NCBI GenBank assembly: GCA_017464815.1
Contig: JAFTYI010000027.1
Span: 1-64,000 of the forward strand
DNA: 64,000 bases
Reading direction: 5' to 3'
Source: Bacteroidaceae bacterium
GTDB taxonomy: Bacteria; Bacteroidota; Bacteroidia; Bacteroidales; Bacteroidaceae
Below, piece after piece: positions 2,998 to 12,806 of this stretch. A program made the translations under genes and the position numbers. Under the pieces are notes generated by a model that had not been told where the DNA came from, searched no databases, and saw nothing but the letters and a program-made list of their open reading frames with translations. The stretch's first letter is position 1, and each line of letters begins with the position of its first letter.

Positions 2998-3013
2998 CTA
3001 ATTTTTCTAAGAT

Positions 3014-4063
3014 ATGAAATCACTTAACTACCGACTGTACAACGAGATTGCAAAGGGATTGGATTATACACGAGCCATAGCCTTCAGCATATTGGTCAAG
3101 CAACACGACCTTGTTTCATCAACCGTCAAAGGGTGTACGGTAAACAAACTGCATGAAATGACGGGACTCCATCCCAACACCATCAAAAAACATCTGCTGA
3201 AACTGGCTGAAATGGGCCTGATTGATGAACTCCCGAACAGAAGCATCGTCTTCAAAAGCCTGTCAAACAAGCATGAAAACCGCAATATGCCACCACTGGA
3301 TTTCGACCAGTTCAAGACGCTGACCGAAATCGAATATGCCATCTACACCGTAGCTATTATGGAACGGCTGAAACGAATGAAATATACCGAAGAAAAATGC
3401 AAAGCCCGCTTCAACCCCACGAAAGGCGATGATTTTGAAGCTGCACGCAAGTATTGCCGCAAACACAACATCACCAGACCTTTTCGAAACAACGGACTTT
3501 CATTTGACGGGATGGCTGAAGAACTGAAGATTTCAAGCACCACGGCAGAGGGAATCATCAAATTTGCCGTCAAGCATAACTTCCTCGAGAAGCACAACCG
3601 ACAAATACAAGTACCAAACTGGGATGTGATGAAAAAAATACCGAATGAAGCAGCTTTCCTTGAAACAGTAGGTGCCCACTTCTGCACAAAGAACAATGTC
3701 TATAAGGTGCTTGCAAACGCATACACCATCATCGACCCCAAACTACATAAATACGAAGTGGATGCGACCGACAACAAAGTTGAACTTCCCAAATGGCAGA
3801 CGGCAGAAAACCTACTCCATAAAATCCAATTGGAAAAACAAGACGCAAAGAAAAAGTCCGCGGAAAAAGGCACATCCAAGTCCGCGAAAGCGAAAAAAAT
3901 GGAGAATCAACCTTGCGCGACCATCGAAAATTATGAAAATTTGGGTCAAAATATAAAAAATAAGGTTTTAGATGATGTTTTTACTTCTCAATCACTTGTT
4001 TCTCTACTGTCTGCTCCCTCCGGTCAAGAACAACATCATCCACATGGTAATATTAGTTCATAG
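3014..4063 (+). CDS. Winged-helix protein of mobile-element type
   Basis: A 349-aa protein with a clear winged-helix region at residues 42-75 (VNKLHEMTGLHPNTIKKHLLKL) and a second helix-turn-helix-like stretch near 165-192 (MAEELKISSTTAEGIIKF). A Lys-rich linker (about 275-300, AKKKSAEKGTSKSAKAKK) leads to a low-complexity tail. Similar proteins occur in Bacteroides plasmids, phages and integrative elements as replication or regulatory proteins; I cannot assign a specific one. Its promoter lies within an inverted repeat, which suggests autoregulation. It opens the AT-rich island, but no integrase or relaxase lies nearby. Confidence 0.6.
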   Translation: MKSLNYRLYNEIAKGLDYTRAIAFSILVKQHDLVSSTVKGCTVNKLHEMTGLHPNTIKKHLLKLAEMGLIDELPNRSIVFKSLSNKHENRNMPPLDFDQFKTLTEIEYAIYTVAIMERLKRMKYTEEKCKARFNPTKGDDFEAARKYCRKHNITRPFRNNGLSFDGMAEELKISSTTAEGIIKFAVKHNFLEKHNRQIQVPNWDVMKKIPNEAAFLETVGAHFCTKNNVYKVLANAYTIIDPKLHKYEVDATDNKVELPKWQTAENLLHKIQLEKQDAKKKSAEKGTSKSAKAKKMENQPCATIENYENLGQNIKNKVLDDVFTSQSLVSLLSAPSGQEQHHPHGNISS

Positions 4064-4319
4064 AAAGTGAAGACAAGAGAGGAAGACAAGAAACAAGATT
4101 GAAGCAAATGCTAAGCAAATGCACGAGCAATACTACAAGAATACGCGACGTATAACAAACGTATAACACAGTTATAGCGTTGTTATCGCTTTGCGACAGA
4201 AAGAGAGGGGTGAACTTTGGTTCATACCCCTTGGCATCATTCTGCCAACCCCTTGGTATTTTCATCACACCCCCTCTTTTCTATTTTGTCAGTGCTTCCA
4301 ATTTTTCCTGTAAAAACCT
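4064..4319 (+). other. Intergenic region with nested hairpins at 4200-4279
   Basis: No gene. Two CGTATAACA direct repeats lie at about 4150-4168. From 4200 to 4279 the RNA could form an outer stem (AAAGAGAGGGGTGA with TCACACCCCCTCTTTT) around two hairpins, GGGGTGAAC/GTTCATACCCC and TTGGCA/TGCCAA. This may be the 3' end signal of the winged-helix transcript or part of the regulation of the next unit. Confidence 0.4.
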
Positions 4320-4350
4320 TTTGCCGTTCCAAAAATGTTTTTTACCTTTG
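4320..4350 (+). promoter_or_regulatory. Promoter of the leader RNA / helicase operon
   Basis: TTTG at 4320-4323 and TAccTTTG at 4343-4350 are 19 bases apart, a good Bacteroidetes promoter. Transcription should begin near 4357, about 247 bases before the helicase start codon. Confidence 0.8.
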
Positions 4351-4356
4351 TCGTGC

Positions 4357-4588
4357 CGTTAGGTGCCAAGTGCATCTTTCGGAGACATATAGGAATGCGT
4401 TCGTATGTTCTAAGTTGACAAATCACCACACCGTTAACTTGAATTTTAGAATATGAAAGGAGCGCGATTCCCTTTGGTCGTCGTATCTTAACCGATATAA
4501 CGCCAAGGGTGAGTTGCATTCATATCTTTAATTCAAGGTTTGTGGTGAACCCGTCAGCAAAGATATATCAGAGTGGCTCACCTTTTTT
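4357..4588 (+). ncRNA. Structured leader RNA with competing terminator
   Basis: A long leader that folds, by hand, into one rod. The closing stem is TCACCACA (4423-4430) with TGTGGTGA (4541-4548). It is followed inward by CTTGAATT (4438-4445)/AATTCAAG (4530-4537), ATATGAA (4451-4457)/TTCATAT (4519-4525), CCCTTTGG (4470-4477)/CCAAGGG (4503-4509), and an apical CGTcGTATC/GATATaACG hairpin with a 6-nt loop. A terminator stem GGTGAACC (4544-4551)/GGCTCACC (4575-4582) followed by six T (4583-4588) uses bases 4544-4548 of the closing stem, so the two folds exclude each other. The helicase ATG is 15 bases after the T-run. It may be an attenuator or riboswitch-like leader, or a free small RNA. I recognise no known family. 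Confidence 0.65.
4575..4588 (+). terminator. Intrinsic terminator before helicase operon
   Basis: The 3' arm GGCTCACC pairs with GGTGAACC (4544-4551; seven of eight pairs) and is followed directly by TTTTTT. It lies inside the transcript between promoter and first start codon, so read-through would be needed for helicase expression. Confidence 0.6.
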
Positions 4589-4603
4589 GTATGTCTTAAT
4601 CCC

Positions 4604-7213
4604 ATGAAAACAGTTTTGTGCCAAAAGGGCCATAATCGGCACATAGAAGAATTGCTGTATATGAATACACAAACATTCGGTTATAATATGTTGAATGACA
4701 CTAATAAAGTGCAATCATTCATTGAATCTGTTGGTTTCCGCATGTGTTCCAAACGTACTGAACCCGCACGTGAAGCACGTTTTTCCTCATATGACGATGC
4801 CGGATTCTCGAAACGTTCAAAAGATTTCTTGAAGAGTAGAAATATTTCATCCCTTTGGACACATCAGTTCAATGCCATTGTTGAAGCCAAAAAGGGGAAC
4901 AATGTTTGTGTTACCACTTCGACAAGTTCGGGCAAAACGGAGATATTTCAAGTCTCAGCCATTGAAGTGTTGGAAAAGAACCCGAAAGCTAAGGTTTTGG
5001 CAGTGTATCCCATGAAAGCACTGAATAGGCAACAGGTCGAACGTTGGGAAAAAACGGGTTATAGTGTCGGTAAGATTGATGGTGACAATACTGGCAATGA
5101 CGAACGAAAAGCTATTTTGGACAATAATCAAATTGTCGTTATGACACCTGATGTCATACATGCTTTCTTATTGGGACGTTTGAATGATTCAAATATAGGA
5201 AGTTGCATAAGGAATTTTATAAAGAACATATCCCTTGTTATCATAGATGAACTTCATCTGTACAAAGGTGTTTTTGGCACAAATTCGGCTTATTTGTTCC
5301 GAAGATTGAACAATGTCCATCGTCTGTTGCGCAAAAACGATCAATTCCCCCAATATATTGCTGCATCAGCAACCTTGCCCAATGCTGCGGAACATTCTTT
5401 TAATATAACAGGAGTAAACGGTTTCGTTGAAATAGGAATAGAACAAGATGCATCACCCGCAGCAGAAAAGACCTTCTTTTATGTAGATGTACCTGATGCG
5501 CCAAAGAACAGTGGTTCGGATTTGGTTCTTTCACTCGTCAATGCTTTTGCAAAAGTGGAGAATGCCAAAAGCATCACATTTGTCGAAAGCCGTCAGCGAA
5601 CTGGCGAAATGGCCATACAAAGCAATCCTGAATCAGGCATATTCCCCTACCGTGCAGGATATGAAAAAGACACAATAGATAAAATAACCGAAAGTCTTCA
5701 TAAGGGCAACTTCAAGGGAGTTGTAAGTACAAGTGCGTTGGAAATAGGCATAGACATTGATGGCTTGAACATTGCTATCATTGCAGATATGCCACACGAC
5801 AAGAACAGCTACCAACAGCGTATCGGCCGTGTGGGACGATTTGGGTGTAACAAGAGTTATGTCATTATTGTACGCACTGGCTCATTCGCCTCTCAATTGC
5901 TATTTGAAAAGTTCGACTATGACATTGACAAAGTTTTGCCCGACTATGAACCCGCCTTATATTTGGAGGACGAAAGTGTGCAGAACATCCATGCTTTTTG
6001 CCATGTTGGAGACCATGACAACTGCGAATATAGCCAATGGAAAGGAAATGTAACCCAAAATAGGAAGTTTGAGTATACAGACTGTTTCCCCGCATCTTTT
6101 GCCAAACTCTGCCAAGAGGTGTTGTCCGGACAAACTACACGCAGTTATGATGATATTACTTCCGAAAGCCCACACCATGATTATCCATTACGGTTTTTTG
6201 GAAAACAATATGACATCGTTGCAGCACCAAACGAGAAGAACACAATACCCCGTGAGCGAATAAACCGAGAAATGGTTGCAACAGAAGGATATGTAGGAGC
6301 CGTCAGAAATACCATGATTGGGAAGGTGGCCATGAAGGAACGTATTGTGAAAGTAGATAATATCAAAGGTGAAATTTGGGCAAAAAAGGAATATAACCAT
6401 TTCTTGACGACACAAGCAAACCACAGAAAGATATTGATACCCAACTTCAAGAAAGAATATAGGAATGGAACGGTTTATTATGATAGCACCAAGGTTTACA
6501 ATATGAGGGTAAGGGAGTTTCATAATATTTTTGGGTTTTATGAAAAGAAAAATGGCGAGAAGTTTTACCATCAATATGAACACGTTTTTCAGATGCCCGA
6601 ATTTGTAACGACAGGAACCATCATTTTTCATCCATCATTCAATAAGTCGGGAGTGAAGATTAACGATATTGCAAAAATATTATTCGAAACATTCCTGCAA
6701 AGGAAAGCCTTTGACAGAAACGACATCGAACACATTGGTACCAAATTGTTCAACAGTAATGAAGAACTAAAAATGAATGACAGGTTTGTTGCACTCTATG
6801 ACATCAAATCGTTGAACATAACAAGTCGAATCATAGATGACAGATTGATGAAGGACTTGTTCGGCTATCTGCATGACTACAAAGACATCATAGCACCTAC
6901 TATATGCCCCAATGTAAACAATGAAACAATGAAAGCTATAGAAGACTTGTGTTTGAGCATCATTAAGAACAAAGCAGACATTGCTTATAAGGAGCTCGGC
7001 AATGAGTACTTCTATAAATGCGGCACGGAAGTGTGGTATTTGAAGGAAACAGATGGTGAGGATGAAGAGTATGAAAGAATCCACGCGATATATGTAGGAA
7101 ATGGGAATTGCATCAACACCTGCGTCCTAATGCTCAATAACAGTTTCATTCCCAATGTGCCAATTGACAGGATTGAAGCGACAGAAAATACAGAATACGA
7201 ACGAATTGATTAG
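4604..7213 (+). CDS. Superfamily 2 DEAD/DEAH-box helicase (YprA/MrfA-like core)
   Basis: An 869-aa helicase. The core occupies residues 80-420: WTHQ (Q motif, 85-88), TSTSSGKT (Walker A, 105-112), YPMKALNRQQ (motif Ia, 135-144), DELH (motif II, 215-218), SATLPN (motif III, 255-260), FVESRQRTG (motif IV, about 326), STSALEIGID (motif V, 375-384) and QQRIGRVGR (motif VI, 404-412). The core resembles the YprA/MrfA repair-helicase group. The remaining 450 residues are unfamiliar and lack an obvious four-Cys cluster of the DUF1998 type. The start is uncertain; ATG at 4661 (residue 20) is possible. It ends eight bases before the next gene, so the two are co-transcribed. Helicases with large unknown partners in AT-rich islands are often phage-defence genes; that role is inference. 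Confidence 0.85.
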   Translation: MKTVLCQKGHNRHIEELLYMNTQTFGYNMLNDTNKVQSFIESVGFRMCSKRTEPAREARFSSYDDAGFSKRSKDFLKSRNISSLWTHQFNAIVEAKKGNNVCVTTSTSSGKTEIFQVSAIEVLEKNPKAKVLAVYPMKALNRQQVERWEKTGYSVGKIDGDNTGNDERKAILDNNQIVVMTPDVIHAFLLGRLNDSNIGSCIRNFIKNISLVIIDELHLYKGVFGTNSAYLFRRLNNVHRLLRKNDQFPQYIAASATLPNAAEHSFNITGVNGFVEIGIEQDASPAAEKTFFYVDVPDAPKNSGSDLVLSLVNAFAKVENAKSITFVESRQRTGEMAIQSNPESGIFPYRAGYEKDTIDKITESLHKGNFKGVVSTSALEIGIDIDGLNIAIIADMPHDKNSYQQRIGRVGRFGCNKSYVIIVRTGSFASQLLFEKFDYDIDKVLPDYEPALYLEDESVQNIHAFCHVGDHDNCEYSQWKGNVTQNRKFEYTDCFPASFAKLCQEVLSGQTTRSYDDITSESPHHDYPLRFFGKQYDIVAAPNEKNTIPRERINREMVATEGYVGAVRNTMIGKVAMKERIVKVDNIKGEIWAKKEYNHFLTTQANHRKILIPNFKKEYRNGTVYYDSTKVYNMRVREFHNIFGFYEKKNGEKFYHQYEHVFQMPEFVTTGTIIFHPSFNKSGVKINDIAKILFETFLQRKAFDRNDIEHIGTKLFNSNEELKMNDRFVALYDIKSLNITSRIIDDRLMKDLFGYLHDYKDIIAPTICPNVNNETMKAIEDLCLSIIKNKADIAYKELGNEYFYKCGTEVWYLKETDGEDEEYERIHAIYVGNGNCINTCVLMLNNSFIPNVPIDRIEATENTEYERID

Positions 7214-7221
7214 TCTTCTAT

Positions 7222-9906
7222 ATGATAAAAATCAAAGAAATATCGGAAGGGAAATACACTCTGACACGTAAAGATAGGATGTTACCAGGGATATACCATA
7301 AAATAGAGAGGGTTGCAGAAAACAGCAATTTTTATTGTTTATGGTCAGACAAAAAACATTTCTGCCTGTATGATGCAAAATCCAATCGATATGCATTGAA
7401 AAGCAGTACACTCTCCGATGCACAAACTTTTTCGCGCATCGAATATTACTCCGAAGAATCGCAGTCGTTCGTTGCGTATCGGAGCGACATGAAGTATGCT
7501 CATATCATTTATGAAGACGGAACATTTGAGTCACAGACATTCAAGTATGTTGGAGCAGAAAAGAATGGACTAAGACCTGTTCAGGATTTTAAGAACAAAT
7601 GGTATTACTATGACACCACGGAACGGAAACGCATAAAGAAAACCCGACACGGCATACAATTAGGAACAGAAGGGCGGCTGGGTGAAATGTTCTCTACGGG
7701 TGAATATGTTGTTTATTACACACCCAAGAAATTGCGTATATTCGCTTCCGTGAATGATACAACAATCAAGTCGCGAGACTACTTTGAATCAATAGAGGAA
7801 ATAGAAGGCAGATTCTTTATCGGAAAGCTCTATGCAAAAAATGTATATACCATTATAAAAGATTACCATATAATAACGCCTATCGGATATTATACGAGTA
7901 TGCCGCAATACATCAAGGAACACAACTTGTTTATTGCAATGAAAGGCAGTTCTTGGTGTGTGATATATCCCAATGGAAAAGAAATACAAAATTATCAATG
8001 GACGGATGATTGCTTTTTCTTTACCAAGAAGTATGTTTTTAATAAGAAAAAGGAATCTTCTTATTGGAAAATATTCAACAGAGAAAATGGACAGGAAGTC
8101 ATTACAAGGTGGAAGAATATAAGACTGTATAATGAAGCGTTTTTTGTCGACACAGAGGCCGAAAGTATGAAAAGGATATCTGATGAAGACATAGAAAAAG
8201 AGACCAATGACTACATTAAATTGTTACAAGGGAACAAGCCGCAAACAATGCCTCATGCCACAAAGACTATTGCAATAAGTACGGAAGAAACAGCTAAAAC
8301 ATCTGCCACAAATCCAACTCCTACAATTGAAAATACTGTTCGCAAAAAGGGAACAAACGATATTGGGGAAACAATGGTTTGTGATAGCTTGCCCGAAAGA
8401 ATAGACTATTATGTATTTGTAAGGCATTTCTCCTCCAAGAACCAGTTTTTAAGTTCAACCGTAAATTGTGAGAATATCAGGGGAGTTGCTTATATTGCAT
8501 GGTTCATTCGTGAAGAAAATACGTTTTGTATTACGGAATCAAGAAGAACCAAAGTACACAAATTGTTATATGTCAGAAGAAATATATTAGAAATAAAATC
8601 GTTATGGAATTGTTCTGTACGTTTTTCTTTCTTATATCCTATAACATTAAATAATTTGCCCAACATTATAAAAGGTCAAACGGCAGAAGGACTTCTGTGT
8701 GATTTTGTAAAAAGAAAGCTAATCAAAACAGAAAATAAGAAGAAAGCTCCAACAACATTTATAACTATGAAGACTGATAGTACCTCGTCAAATGAAGACT
8801 TAAAGGATGCCATAATTTTGGTTGACGATGTTGAGTTTATTGATAGTAATCGTTTTTATTACCCTAACGCTTCAAGTAGTCAAATCATCAACCAACAAAA
8901 TGTATGTTGGCTAATATGGAAAGATTATTCAATAATTCTGACCAAGGTAGAAGCGAATTGTACATATAGAATCGTTTTTAAGATAGAAAATGACAATCGC
9001 GCAAAAATGCTTATAAAGAATATGAATATGAGCAGGCTATTCAACAGATTTATATTCTGTAAAGAAGGAGTACTAACACGTGGAGGACTCATTGATTCTT
9101 TATATGAAATATTGTCAGAACAATCCCTATTAAAGAAAGGAGCAAGAATAACAAGAAACGTAAATATCACGAAACCTAAAACAGAAATAAAAGTCTCAGA
9201 AGCAACAAAAGAGACAACAGCTAAAGATAGTAAAAAAGAAGTCCATCCACCTCAAATTGTAAACCCTATGACCAAACTTCAAGAACTTTATGAAACCCGC
9301 GAAAAGCTACAGAGCTTAGGAATAGAACCCAATGCTGACCTCGAAAGACAATTGGCCGCTTTGGAAGAAGATTTCATTAGAACTGAAATAGTGCCAAAAA
9401 TGGAAGAAACCGTTGAACCTGTGTTAAAACAAGTGAAACGGGAACTTGTATTTGTCCTTGAATATCATCCGGAAGAAGGGGTGCACGTACAGCTTTCACG
9501 GAAAAGAAATGAAGTGGTAAATGCTGTATTAGAAGAGAAAAGAACGGTTTCTCCCCAAACAATTGAACCAATATCAAATAGTTCATTACAAAAATTACGT
9601 GTTACATTTCCTGATGGAGAGGTAATTTACGAACGTTGGGTGATTGAAACATTAGGCAAAACCATTATCAAGTTGGGAATCCAAAAGGTGGCCAATGTCT
9701 GTGATTTTAACATGGGCTCTTCATTGTTACATCCAGCTGGCATTAGCCTTGTTTCAAAAGTGTACGATTCCAAATATGGAGTTTATCAACGGCCATTAGA
9801 AGGTGAATGGTTGCTGTTTTCAAACTCAAATACACTCACCAAAAAACGACAAATAGAGTATCTTGCCAAAGCCCTTGGAGTAAGATTGACGGTTGAGATT
9901 GTATGA
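7222..9906 (+). CDS. Large unknown protein of the helicase operon (WG-like N-terminus, MTKLQEL module)
   Basis: An 894-aa protein of unknown function with no signal peptide. Residues 1-330 are rich in short beta-strands with repeated aromatic turns, like WG-repeat or beta-propeller proteins. Two similar blocks (about 390-500 and 520-650) may be an internal duplication. From Met683 to the end a separate module begins (MTKLQELYETREKLQSLG); its first 80 residues recur almost unchanged at the N-terminus of the next gene. The C-terminal 100 residues (VTFPDGEVIYERW...ISLVSKVYD) form a compact domain resembling one I recall from Bacteroidetes hypothetical proteins. Because the next gene starts at the matching Met, this protein probably arose by fusing an N-terminal gene onto a MTKLQEL gene. 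It probably works with the helicase. Confidence 0.6.
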   Translation: MIKIKEISEGKYTLTRKDRMLPGIYHKIERVAENSNFYCLWSDKKHFCLYDAKSNRYALKSSTLSDAQTFSRIEYYSEESQSFVAYRSDMKYAHIIYEDGTFESQTFKYVGAEKNGLRPVQDFKNKWYYYDTTERKRIKKTRHGIQLGTEGRLGEMFSTGEYVVYYTPKKLRIFASVNDTTIKSRDYFESIEEIEGRFFIGKLYAKNVYTIIKDYHIITPIGYYTSMPQYIKEHNLFIAMKGSSWCVIYPNGKEIQNYQWTDDCFFFTKKYVFNKKKESSYWKIFNRENGQEVITRWKNIRLYNEAFFVDTEAESMKRISDEDIEKETNDYIKLLQGNKPQTMPHATKTIAISTEETAKTSATNPTPTIENTVRKKGTNDIGETMVCDSLPERIDYYVFVRHFSSKNQFLSSTVNCENIRGVAYIAWFIREENTFCITESRRTKVHKLLYVRRNILEIKSLWNCSVRFSFLYPITLNNLPNIIKGQTAEGLLCDFVKRKLIKTENKKKAPTTFITMKTDSTSSNEDLKDAIILVDDVEFIDSNRFYYPNASSSQIINQQNVCWLIWKDYSIILTKVEANCTYRIVFKIENDNRAKMLIKNMNMSRLFNRFIFCKEGVLTRGGLIDSLYEILSEQSLLKKGARITRNVNITKPKTEIKVSEATKETTAKDSKKEVHPPQIVNPMTKLQELYETREKLQSLGIEPNADLERQLAALEEDFIRTEIVPKMEETVEPVLKQVKRELVFVLEYHPEEGVHVQLSRKRNEVVNAVLEEKRTVSPQTIEPISNSSLQKLRVTFPDGEVIYERWVIETLGKTIIKLGIQKVANVCDFNMGSSLLHPAGISLVSKVYDSKYGVYQRPLEGEWLLFSNSNTLTKKRQIEYLAKALGVRLTVEIV
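9268..9507 (+). repeat. Duplicated module, copy 1
   Basis: About 240 bp encoding MTKLQELYETREKL...GVHVQLSRKR inside the 894-aa gene. It is matched by 9956-10195 with few changes at either DNA or protein level. Confidence 0.9.
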
Positions 9907-9955: not shown

Positions 9956-10195
9956 ATGACCAAACTGCAAGAACTCTACGAAACCCGCGAAAAGCTACAG
10001 AGCTTAGGGATAGAACCCAATGATGACCTCAAAAGACAATTGGCCGCTTTGGAAGAAGAGATTGTTAAAAGTGAAATAGTACCAAAAATGAAAGAAACCG
10101 TTGAACCTGTATTGAAACAAGTGAAACGGGAACTTGTATTCATTATTGAATATCATCCGGAAGAAGGGGTACACGTACAGCTTTCACGAAAAAGA
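9956..10195 (+). repeat. Duplicated module, copy 2
   Basis: The second copy of the 240-bp module, starting at the ATG of the 251-aa gene. It matches 9268-9507. Confidence 0.9.
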
Positions 10196-10711
10196 AGTGT
10201 TGTTGATGAGTCACCTCAAAAGATAGGAAAAGTGAAAACCTGTACGTATGCCAAAGAAACGAATACACATAAAAGTGAATTAGAACCGCGTGGCCAAAGA
10301 ATAAAAGAAGATATTTTCTTGCAAGACAAGAAGCTTGATTGGTCTTTACTGACAAATGGTGTGACATTAGTAAACCAATGTTATGATATAATTCTTAAGC
10401 AGTTAGGTTGGGACATAAAGGTCGGTGAAATAAAAGATGTAAAAATACATATTGGTAAAGAAAGCTTTGACGCACGATTCCATTTTCAAAATTATGACAA
10501 TAGAGTGAATGATATCATGCAGATAAGGTATTCGCCCGGCCTCCCGATTGCGACCAAACTTCAGCACATATTCCATGACTTATATCAGAAGTTAGAGCGT
10601 GAACGTCTTAACAAGGAAAAAGGGTTGAAAACTGAAAAAATTGAAATCGACAGATATATCCATATTTATGCCACCACGACCCCTTATGTATTTCGGTTCG
10701 TTGTGGTATAA
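9956..10711 (+). CDS. Unknown protein with MTKLQEL module and LQIRYS-like domain
   Basis: A 251-aa protein starting 49 bases after the previous stop. Residues 1-80 copy residues 683-762 of the upstream protein. The C-terminal part (SLLTNGVTLVNQC...NDIMQIRYSPGLPIATKLQHIF) resembles, from memory, an accessory domain of HNH-type restriction endonucleases in defence islands (motif DIxQIRYS); this is weak evidence. There is no signal peptide or membrane segment. The shared module suggests both proteins bind the same partner, perhaps the helicase or a common ligand. Confidence 0.55.
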   Translation: MTKLQELYETREKLQSLGIEPNDDLKRQLAALEEEIVKSEIVPKMKETVEPVLKQVKRELVFIIEYHPEEGVHVQLSRKRSVVDESPQKIGKVKTCTYAKETNTHKSELEPRGQRIKEDIFLQDKKLDWSLLTNGVTLVNQCYDIILKQLGWDIKVGEIKDVKIHIGKESFDARFHFQNYDNRVNDIMQIRYSPGLPIATKLQHIFHDLYQKLERERLNKEKGLKTEKIEIDRYIHIYATTTPYVFRFVVV

Positions 10712-10969: not shown

Positions 10970-11200
10970 TTACCCCATTTTTCCCGTTTCAAGTTCTGTT
11001 TCCAGGTATTCGTAAATGTAGGCTGTACTTTGGGTGTAAAGTCCGTTATGCGTTTCGGTAAGTCGGGCATAAGTGTCGGAGGTATAGAGGGTGCGAAGGG
11101 CTTCATGCATATCCATGTGACGCTCTTCCATCAAAAGCATGACAAGCTCTTTCGAGATGTTCTCTATCATCCAGTTCTGTTGTTCGCGGGTTATCGTCAT
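10970..11200 (-). CDS. Small DUF3791-partner protein
   Basis: A 76-aa protein (MTITREQQNWMIENISKE...NGLYTQSTAYIYEYLETEL). It resembles the small helical proteins that sit with DUF3791 genes in Bacteroidales, often upstream of a DUF3990 ADP-ribosyltransferase-like gene. No DUF3990 gene is present here. The ATG at 11200 follows the stop of the upstream gene by 22 bases; longer in-frame extensions run back into that gene and are unlikely. The function is unknown. Confidence 0.6.
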   Translation of the reverse strand: MTITREQQNWMIENISKELVMLLMEERHMDMHEALRTLYTSDTYARLTETHNGLYTQSTAYIYEYLETELETGKMG

Positions 11201-11222
11201 AATAGTGGTTTCAACGAGAGTT

Positions 11223-11447
11223 TCATGCCAATGCTCCTCCTTTCCGATGGCAATAGGCAGTGAGGTCTTCGATGACATCCTCAAACGAAAAGGTGTGTTC
11301 CACGTTGTAGAAACGATCAATGAAGTCGATACCTTGGTATCGTTCCAGGTAGCGATAGGCTTGCATGGTTGTCAATGAGTGTGCCGCAGCAAAGTCACCG
11401 ACAATGGCAATGATGTATTCTATCTTGTTTTTTGTATGCTCGCTCAT
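11223..11447 (-). CDS. DUF3791 protein
   Basis: A 74-aa helical protein matching the DUF3791 pattern (IIAIVGDFAAAHSLTTMQAYRYL ... FEDVIEDLTAYCHRKGGAL). These proteins are thought to pair with DUF3990 toxins, which makes an antitoxin-like role plausible but unproven. A minus-strand -7 element TAaaTTTG lies at 11485-11478. With its downstream partner it is flanked by 100-bp direct repeats, and the usual third gene is missing, so this looks like a cassette remnant. Confidence 0.7.
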   Translation of the reverse strand: MSEHTKNKIEYIIAIVGDFAAAHSLTTMQAYRYLERYQGIDFIDRFYNVEHTFSFEDVIEDLTAYCHRKGGALA

Positions 11448-11850
11448 ATCTTTTTTGTTTCAAACAATCGAACGCTGCAAATTTACGCTTTGTTTTTGAG
11501 TTTTCCAATATTTTGTCCGCTTTCCTTTCACTTGTCCTTTGTTTTTCTTCACAAAAGAGGACTTTGCATGATGGCGACTTACGCCTACCATCCAACTTCC
11601 CCCACCTCCCACCTTCACCACTTTGAAGTGAAAACGGAAAGTGTGGGGAAGTCTCTCTGTATATACATCATCCCTTAGAAACAAAAAACAGGGCGTTTCT
11701 TTGAATTCCTTCATTTGGCGCGTTTTTGTTCCTTATATATACTCTCCTAAAAACAAAAAAGTACCGTTGTCGCTTTGCTGTCGCATTTGCGATTGAAAGA
11801 GAGTTGTGTATGTTTCTTTAACCTCTTGTTGCTCGGAAAATGTTGTTTGC
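11448..11850. repeat. Intergenic region with direct repeat A, right copy
   Basis: No gene. Contains the promoter of the DUF3791 gene, the right copy of direct repeat A (11596-11693), one copy of TTCCTTCATTTGGCGCGTTT (11707-11726; two more at 13150-13190) and a weaker third echo of the repeat end (TCCTAAAAACAAAAAA near 11745). Confidence 0.75.
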
Positions 11851-12141
11851 CTACACGGCTACCATGTCCTCTCCTTCTTTCATGACACCGATAATGTTTG
11901 TACCGAGTGCTACGGAGATTTTGGATAGTGTGGCCAACGTAAGGTTATGCGTACCAGAAAGCCAACGGCTGACCTCCGTTTCACTCTTCCCCATCAAACG
12001 GGCAAAGTCCTTTTGTGTCATTCCTCTTGATTCAAGAATATCGTAAATGCGGTTAGCTATGCCGACGGACAGTTCCATCTGCTTTTTCATCTCGGATGAG
12101 ATTGTTCCGCGAATTTCGTTCATGATGGCATTCGTTTTCAT
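11851..12141 (-). CDS. XRE-family antitoxin (HigA-like)
   Basis: A 96-aa protein with a Cro/C1 helix-turn-helix at residues 41-63 (MTQKDFARLMGKSETEVSRWLSG) and the HNLTLATLSKISVALG continuation typical of HigA-like antitoxins. It should neutralise the toxin encoded 24 bases upstream and repress the shared promoter at 12683-12676. The toxin-first gene order is typical of HigBA systems. Confidence 0.85.
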   Translation of the reverse strand: MKTNAIMNEIRGTISSEMKKQMELSVGIANRIYDILESRGMTQKDFARLMGKSETEVSRWLSGTHNLTLATLSKISVALGTNIIGVMKEGEDMVAV

Positions 12142-12165
12142 AAGGCTGTCTTCTGTCTTTAATCG

Positions 12166-12645
12166 TTACTCTTCTATTGTAAAAGATAATTCACCCAAAA
12201 GTCGGGTGCCTGTGACAACAATTTCCTTGCAACGTTCCCGTTGTTTGATTTGAATGTCTATTTTTTGCAAAGTCTGCACACATCTGTGCAGATTCTCGTC
12301 CTCTTGGTATGTGGCTGTAGCTTTCAGCCCTCCATTCCCCAATATGAGTACTTTGGATTGGATATTCAACAAATAGAGTCTCAGAAAAGTTGTTTCAAGG
12401 TGTGAAGGCAGAGCCATTACCCTATCCCGTTTTGTTCCTTCATAACGGAAATGCCGGTCGGCCGCACCGTCACGTTTTATAATGTCGAGACGATAAACCA
12501 ACTGGCGTACATCATTCGGATGTGTATCCTTGTATTCAAGAAGAAACTTTTCAAACTCGGAATAGTTTTCCCCTTCAAAATGTGGTGAATAAAGGCTTAC
12601 TTTTTCTCCGTCTTCCAACAACTCAATAAACAAATTTCTTTCCAT
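12166..12645 (-). CDS. RelE/HigB-like toxin
   Basis: A 159-aa protein of a Bacteroidetes family found directly upstream of XRE antitoxins. The central block (RRDG-like KRDGAADRHFRYEGTKRDRVMALP...LRLYLLNIQSKVLILGNGGLK) matches the strand-rich core of RelE/HigB-type mRNA interferases, with the basic residues needed for RNA cleavage. It probably cleaves mRNA at the ribosome when freed from its antitoxin. I chose ATG at 12645 because AAGGA lies just upstream and a -7 element (TAtaTTTG, 12683-12676) rules out the earlier Met at 12678. Confidence 0.7.
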   Translation of the reverse strand: MERNLFIELLEDGEKVSLYSPHFEGENYSEFEKFLLEYKDTHPNDVRQLVYRLDIIKRDGAADRHFRYEGTKRDRVMALPSHLETTFLRLYLLNIQSKVLILGNGGLKATATYQEDENLHRCVQTLQKIDIQIKQRERCKEIVVTGTRLLGELSFTIEE

Positions 12646-12806
12646 AATCTGTTCCTTGTATAGATTATATTCGCGCAAATATACACATATAAGTTTATTC
12701 TTCTTGCCTATAAGCTGTTAGAACTTTCATTATTTATATATATTTAACACTTTAAGCCACACTGTAGGACGTCTTTTTGTGCTTACAACCAAAAACGCCG
12801 TGTTTC

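Follow-up and report, generated by a model that had tools for sequence, protein, structure and literature searches.

A divergent long-form member of a structured leader RNA family, probably a transcription attenuator, ahead of a helicase operon in a Bacteroidaceae genome

The window, a stretch of 64,000 nucleotides of Bacteroidaceae DNA, contains an operon with an open reading frame (ORF) annotated as coding for a DEAD/Helicase_C protein and an ORF coding for an 894-amino-acid (aa) protein, preceded by a putative structured leader RNA at positions 4357 to 4588 (Table 1). The helicase was found in 1 of 301 family genomes (E up to 1e-40), the window's own. Homologues with 50 to 60% identity were present at loci L002 to L005 (Prevotella, Prevotellaceae, Bacteroides, and Bacteroidales), and a distant helicase was present at L006. 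The pairing of the helicase gene with the gene for the second protein, which is WG-like (894 aa in the window and 694 aa in L004), is conserved in L002 to L005, and homologues of a NADAR-like gene occurred in L002, L003, and L004 and in genome G238. The genes at 4604 to 9906 constitute a possible uncharacterized defense-type module; in PADLOC, matches to many helicase models were obtained for the helicase and to no model for the 894-aa protein. A partial gene duplication is seen in the 251-aa ORF at 9956 to 10711, which is a second copy of the C-terminal portion of this protein (53% over 172 aa). Downstream of the operon, small genes on the minus strand (10970 to 12678) matched the PADLOC candidate models PDC-M13C and PDC-M64B/C. 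An HTH-like protein is encoded at 3014 to 4063. Its 71% homologue in L009 likewise stands before a member of the RNA family described below, with an SNF2-type helicase next, so that the context is shared.

Table 1. Features of the leader RNA and the genes behind it (positions in the window)
Feature	Position	Strand	Remarks
Promoter-like sequence	4319..4350	+	-33-like TTTTGCC, 4319-4325; -7-like TACCTTTG, 4343-4350
AGACATA motif near 5' end	4383..4389	+	Common to many members
P2, 5' strand	4392..4413	+	Partner 4446-4471; 20 bp, 20/20 pairs standard; duplex -21.1 kcal/mol
P1, 5' strand (GTTGAC)	4414..4419	+	Partner 4553-4558
P1b, 5' strand (TCACCACA)	4423..4430	+	In P2 loop; partner 4541-4548; covaries in model-found members
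Lower rod, 5' strand	4436..4445	+	Partner 4530-4540; window folding
P2, 3' strand	4446..4471	+	Partner 4392-4413
Upper rod, 5' strand (CCCTTTGG)	4470..4477	+	Partner 4503-4509; proposed antiterminator
Upper rod, 3' strand (CCAAGGG)	4503..4509	+	Overlaps segment A
Segment A1	4505..4517	+	Partner tail 4573-4585, 13 bp; contested by upper rod and tail
Segment A2	4522..4529	+	Partner tail 4559-4566, 8 bp; counterpart helix covaries in relatives (helix 4)
Possible hairpin (GGTT-TGTGGTG-AACC)	4537..4551	+	Loop includes P1b 3' strand
P1, 3' strand (GTCAGC)	4553..4558	+	Partner 4414-4419
Tail	4559..4588	+	A2' 4559-4566, A1' 4573-4585, T-run 4583-4588; proposed intrinsic terminator
DEAD/Helicase_C protein	4604..7213	+	First gene behind leader
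Second gene, 894 aa	7222..9906	+	No Pfam match; homologues beside helicase in L002, L003, L004, L005

Folding of the RNA at 4357 to 4588 gave a minimum free energy of -77.4 kcal/mol, compared to a mean of -52.2 kcal/mol for 200 shuffled sequences (z = -5.55; 0/200 as good). The predicted fold contains a long rod (4414/4423 to 4548/4558), in agreement with the rod that the earlier note on this DNA had placed at 4423 to 4548. The rod's middle helix (4449 to 4457/4519 to 4528) competes with the 20-bp helix P2, whose counterpart is present in relatives. The promoter claimed at 4320 to 4350 corresponds to TTTTGCC and a downstream TACCTTTG, which we take to be a promoter-like sequence of the Bacteroidales type. 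A sigma-70-type consensus scan of positions 3001 to 6000 listed neither the window promoter nor the terminator, and the scan gave no excess of promoter and terminator sites (7 versus 6.0 and 2 versus 3.1 expected). The case for the RNA therefore had to rest on relatives.

The earlier note had recognized no known family, and the Rfam search bore this out: no family reached its gathering score with the window RNA, and at E values up to 5, only two microRNA models matched, far below threshold. Twenty loci, 19 of them with a member of the family, were also searched against Rfam 15 at E values up to 1 and gave only subthreshold matches and tRNA genes elsewhere in the sequence; an HDV-like ribozyme was also considered but is unsupported, with no such match at this cutoff. 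In a BLASTN search of the 301 family genomes, the window aside, a single locus matched in the RNA proper: L008, in G238 (E = 1.5e-12), where the RNA stands before a different operon. Seven further places matched the promoter part only, and some of these were later recognized as sites of members (L011, L015, and L009, the last being one and the same place as L096). A shared 14-base motif occurred at 6 sites in 15 genomes of the genus and at 71 sites in 60 of 399 family genomes, compared to 18 sites for a reversed control pattern. The 55 of these 71 sites that have TCACCAC 61 to 119 nucleotides (nt) upstream form the motif-selected member set. The 16 sites set aside, without TCACCAC in the required range, include L088, a cut member at the same place as a 58-bit model match, and L114, which looks like a damaged member.

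Covariance model searches at E values up to 0.001 found matches in 102 of the 301 family genomes, about a third, and in 13 of 30 genera, with up to six matches per genome; 7 of the 15 genus genomes had a match. At the order level, 11 of 247 genomes matched, each from a different family, one being the window's own. A 16-base piece of the motif was present in 15 viral contigs, 6 of which carry full-length model matches (53 to 148 bits), and the viral-contig members L163 and L167 are alike. An initial gapped pattern had no match among viral contigs, and its sole match across 393 order genomes was the window. Two viral pattern matches were judged by inspection to be chance and had no model match. 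Neither the window leader region nor L111 had a BLAST match among plasmids or phages. Judged by this comparison of relatives, the RNA at 4357 to 4588 belongs to a large structured RNA family without an Rfam match.

Members share a layout in which a P2 hairpin near the 5' end carries the 5' strands of P1 and P1b in its loop, and the 3' strands of P1 and P1b follow the rod. The rod is topped by an apical stem. Its upper 3' strand (segment A) has its complement in the tail, which leads into a T-run. The pairing was examined in alignment A2, which holds 46 of 47 short-form members (L079, which is like L076, was left out) and leaves out the other 8 of the 55 members, namely the window, L018, L093 to L097, and L120. 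In this alignment, the named pairs were kept in 92.9% of 1,374 cells, compared to 83.9% in shuffled alignments and 31 to 49% in slid versions, and G-U pairs were among the pair types kept. Double changes were seen in 19 of 30 pairs (12.6 in shuffled alignments) and in 122 cells (39.3 in shuffled alignments), with permutations that ignore kinship. Helix P1 (helix 1) had double changes in 7/7 pairs, and the helices between segment A and the tail (helices 3 and 4) covaried as well. RNAalifold, run on a first alignment of the 55, recovered part of the fold only.

Alignment-free counts agreed with this picture. P1 of at least 6 bp was present in 52 of the 55 members, and pairing of segment A with the tail (A:tail) exceeded all of 2,000 permutations, which ignore kinship; in a set of 79 members, A:tail of at least 7 bp was present in 74. 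Among 76 model-aligned members, which do not include the window, best stems of at least 5 bp were found for the lower rod in 75 (70 distinct stems), for P1b in 73, and for the P2 region in 71, where the register varies; the best stem is not the expected one in every row. At L018 and L008, the lower-rod helix can form, as judged by eye, with letters changed on both sides. The 55 members were selected on the exact motif, and their invariance in P1b follows from this selection, so that only model-found members inform on this helix. Such members, without the exact motif, covary in P1b: TTACCAC/GTGGTAA in L132, CTACCAC/GTGGTAG in L135, TCGACCAAA/TTTGGTCGA in L146, and TCATCCAAAA/TTTTGGATGA in L149. 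The possible hairpin GGTT/AACC becomes GGCT/AGCC in L127 and L132. Covariation in homologous leaders, on which the earlier note had staked its reading, was therefore found, both in the aligned cells and in the many distinct lower-rod stems. A coding leader peptide was considered and rejected: by eye, the region after the motif is open in some members, and others have in-frame stops and indels.

The window copy is divergent and of the long form. Against model R1, which was built without the window, it scored 26.3 bits (E = 3e-4), a weak match with a rough E value, with L094 and L018 at 19.3 and 18.4 bits, respectively; at whole-genome scale, the window copy fell below the model's reporting threshold. 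The P1, P1b, P2, rod, and A:tail pairings are present in the window copy, in the order that defines the family. Like L018 and L094, it has long insertions and a P2 of much greater length, as judged by eye and, for the window alone, by computation. At whole-genome scale, the model reported only another, strong member in this genome (G000:C11:9670-9856; 92.8 bits), which precedes a frame with, by eye, a lipoprotein-like start.

Comparison with relatives also changed the view of the terminator. The earlier note had proposed a stem of 4544 to 4551 with 4575 to 4582. Its 3' arm and the T's at 4583 to 4588 stood, and bases 4544 to 4548 do lie in both the rod's closing stem and the proposed arm, but the 5' arm did not hold as a conserved feature. 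As a conserved switch, that stem was rejected: its estimated energy was -8.0 kcal/mol, compared to -22.0 kcal/mol for the A:tail duplex (4505 to 4517/4573 to 4585 plus 4522 to 4529/4559 to 4566). In short-form members, the tail letters differ and pair with segment A, and it is the counterpart of the pairing with 4505 to 4529 that is kept and covaries in relatives. T-runs follow the tail in members' sequences. The general idea of a leader with mutually exclusive pairings ahead of an operon, and hence of a regulatory RNA, was well guessed in view of the relatives.

From these features, we infer switching and termination at the RNA level, and the RNA at 4357 to 4588 is likely a transcription attenuator of the helicase operon, although with considerable reservation. 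In the emerging RNA, P2 would form first and the rod second. As long as the rod held segment A, the tail would stay free and transcription would read into the operon. Capture of segment A by the tail would instead place a long stem directly before the T-run and bring about termination. This terminating stem would be held by its loop, in which the P1/P1b 3' strands could pair with the P1/P1b 5' strands of the P2 loop, a contact that would be common to both states, and a ligand, a protein, or another common signal would tip the choice. In folds of growing window transcripts, those ending at 4475 or 4505 had P2, and the rod appeared when the transcript extended to 4550. The estimated energies were -77.4 kcal/mol for the rod state, -60.8 kcal/mol for P2 plus A:tail, and -68.6 kcal/mol for A:tail alone when forced. 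P1 plus P1b had an energy of -18.2 kcal/mol and would add up to this amount to the P2-plus-A:tail state, making the two states similar in estimated energy by a rough addition that leaves loop costs out of account. The attenuator is favored because segment A has two partners, P2 folds before the rod, and the energies are close.

Two observations complicate this mechanism. A local tail hairpin of at least 5 bp was found in 47 of the 55 members; it may be an alternative terminator, and because it can end most short forms, A:tail is perhaps not needed for termination. In the window, the local tail hairpin has just 4 bp. Moreover, P2, P1/P1b, the lower rod, and A:tail could perhaps coexist in one rigid fold, and there would then be no switch. 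Such a fold would suit a passive 5' untranslated module, an mRNA stabilizer or insulator that travels with accessory genes, and the unrelated genes behind the leader, without a shared metabolite, fit this reading, as does the possible coexistence of all conserved helices but the upper rod. Against it, segment A can pair with either of two strands, and such a module would not need a T-run before the start codon; we consider this explanation rather improbable. In members, the apical 5' strand of the rod resembles the tail: its mean score with segment A was 13.2, compared to 9.6 when shuffled (79 members). The test was individually significant (P < 0.05) in 30 of the 79 members and not in 49, including the window, L018, and L094, in which the 20 nt scored do not reach the partner.

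The position of the RNA relative to genes bears on whether it acts on them. A co-oriented ORF came first downstream in 74 of 79 members, starting -24 to 373 nt past the match end as scored by a simple ORF script, and in 68 of these 74 it lay within 90 nt. Of the other five, one was scored as minus strand (L127), three had less than 250 nt of sequence left, and one had no ORF; the L127 score was a script miss, as a plus-strand ATG frame is present. The earlier note had also allowed for a stand-alone partner RNA, and this is less likely because of the co-oriented ORFs. A small RNA of this kind would have its own strong promoter and a constitutive terminator and act in trans, with the gene behind it merely a neighbor. 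The pseudoknotted fold and the T-run after a stem would be expected of it, as would the promoter-like TAnnTTTG found upstream of 50 of the 55 motif-selected members and absent in 5. At a relative, L012:1501-1700, a promoter-like sequence with a similar core stands before a tRNA gene (identified by eye), so that the start of the leader is similar to a promoter for stable RNA in this group. Against this stand the fixed relation to the downstream gene and the fact that related genes keep related leaders in several cases (L063/L087/L092, L100/L101, and L116/L118, with the L063 and L092 leaders 95% identical), although not in L099 and L105, whose proteins are 80% and leaders 64% identical. On balance, a stand-alone RNA is improbable, and a leader acting on the gene behind it is the preferred reading.

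The genes behind the leader were mostly unrelated. Among the first 25 of 45 Pfam families matched by 72 downstream proteins, BspA-type LRR_5 and LRR_8 were the commonest, with five proteins each, and DEAD (3), SNF2 (2), AIPR (1), and T5orf172 (1) were also present. A crude script labeled 49 of the 72 as exported or lipoprotein on the basis of a hydrophobic N terminus. No shared metabolite or pathway emerged among the downstream genes, and none suggested a ligand. A defense-specific RNA, an impression given by the helicase, SNF2, and AIPR neighbors, failed in the larger set, and the helicase and phage theme of the earlier note is unsupported because most genes behind the family are unrelated. 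At the homologous helicase loci, L004 has a leader remnant before a truncated helicase (by eye and by motif; just 13 bits with the model, E = 0.31), and L002, L003, and L005 have no such leader directly ahead of the helicase, L005 having a weak match (18.5 bits) almost 5 kb upstream. As the leader stands before another operon in G238 and, of L002 to L005, only L004 has a remnant, RNA and helicase are separable.

Leaders and genes were further compared at 67 loci, which gave 61 leader pairs with at least 75% identity. The downstream proteins were similar (E up to 0.01) in 10 of these pairs and had no match at E = 0.01 in the other 51; the leaders of L111 and L087, for example, are 93% identical and have no downstream protein match. 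Similar leaders before dissimilar genes, together with the full model matches in viral contigs, are what would also be expected of a DNA-level element, such as a recombination site or a MITE-like insert with a hairpin beside mobile cargo genes. The fixed orientation and short spacing to the ORF, the promoter-like sequence upstream, the retention of G-U pairs, and two-sided changes spread over many stems stand against it and make this explanation very improbable. If the leader is an attenuator, its signal is probably a general cell state and not the product of the controlled gene, because similar leaders precede unrelated genes. The leader is possibly a riboswitch. A tentative extension, which we regard as possible but doubtful, is a riboswitch-like class in which a portable kissing-loop switch with its promoter is attached by Bacteroidales to acquired accessory genes and places them under one common RNA-sensed signal; the cargo would be unrelated, horizontally moving genes, including those for surface lipoproteins, BspA repeats, and defense-type helicases and genes of prophage contigs.

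The family resembles riboswitches and terminator-based attenuators in its 5' leader position, its conserved structured core, its one strand with two partners, and its stem and T-run before the start codon. It differs from them in that the proposed terminating stem is long range, with a loop that holds the conserved core and pairs with an upstream hairpin loop, and in that the genes behind it share no pathway. RNA regulators usually precede genes of one pathway. In T-box and LoaP/UpxY-type antitermination leaders, the leader RNA decides between read-through and termination, as proposed here; the Rfam searches, however, matched neither the window nor the 20 loci to a T-box. The Bacteroidales-1 (RF01693) and Bacteroides-1 (RF01694) RNAs are likewise candidate structured RNAs of the same order, in the parts of their description consulted (PMC2864571), and neither was matched by the window or by the 20 loci, 19 of them with a member (E up to 1). 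A survey of the human microbiome (PMC8040213) likewise presents, in the parts consulted, thousands of structured RNA candidates, some from Bacteroidetes and some ending in terminators; the leader family is not described in those parts and may stand unnamed in the supplementary lists. No description of it was found in the parts consulted of PMC2864571 and PMC7366714 or in the titles and the starts of abstracts of other literature. The leader family has covarying pseudoknots, and the genes behind it have no function in common. Should it prove to be a switch, Bacteroidales would have a large unrecognized layer of gene control, one showing how newly acquired genes, defense-type helicase operons included, come under a common signal.

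Two smaller observations concern individual loci. A small lipoprotein family recurs behind the leader at L111, L124, L163, L166, and L167, on bacterial and viral contigs, with the similarity measured for L111 and L124 and judged by eye for the others. At L064, a second, diverged member (68 bits) lies at 4201 to 4360 on the minus strand, less than 2 kb from the first.
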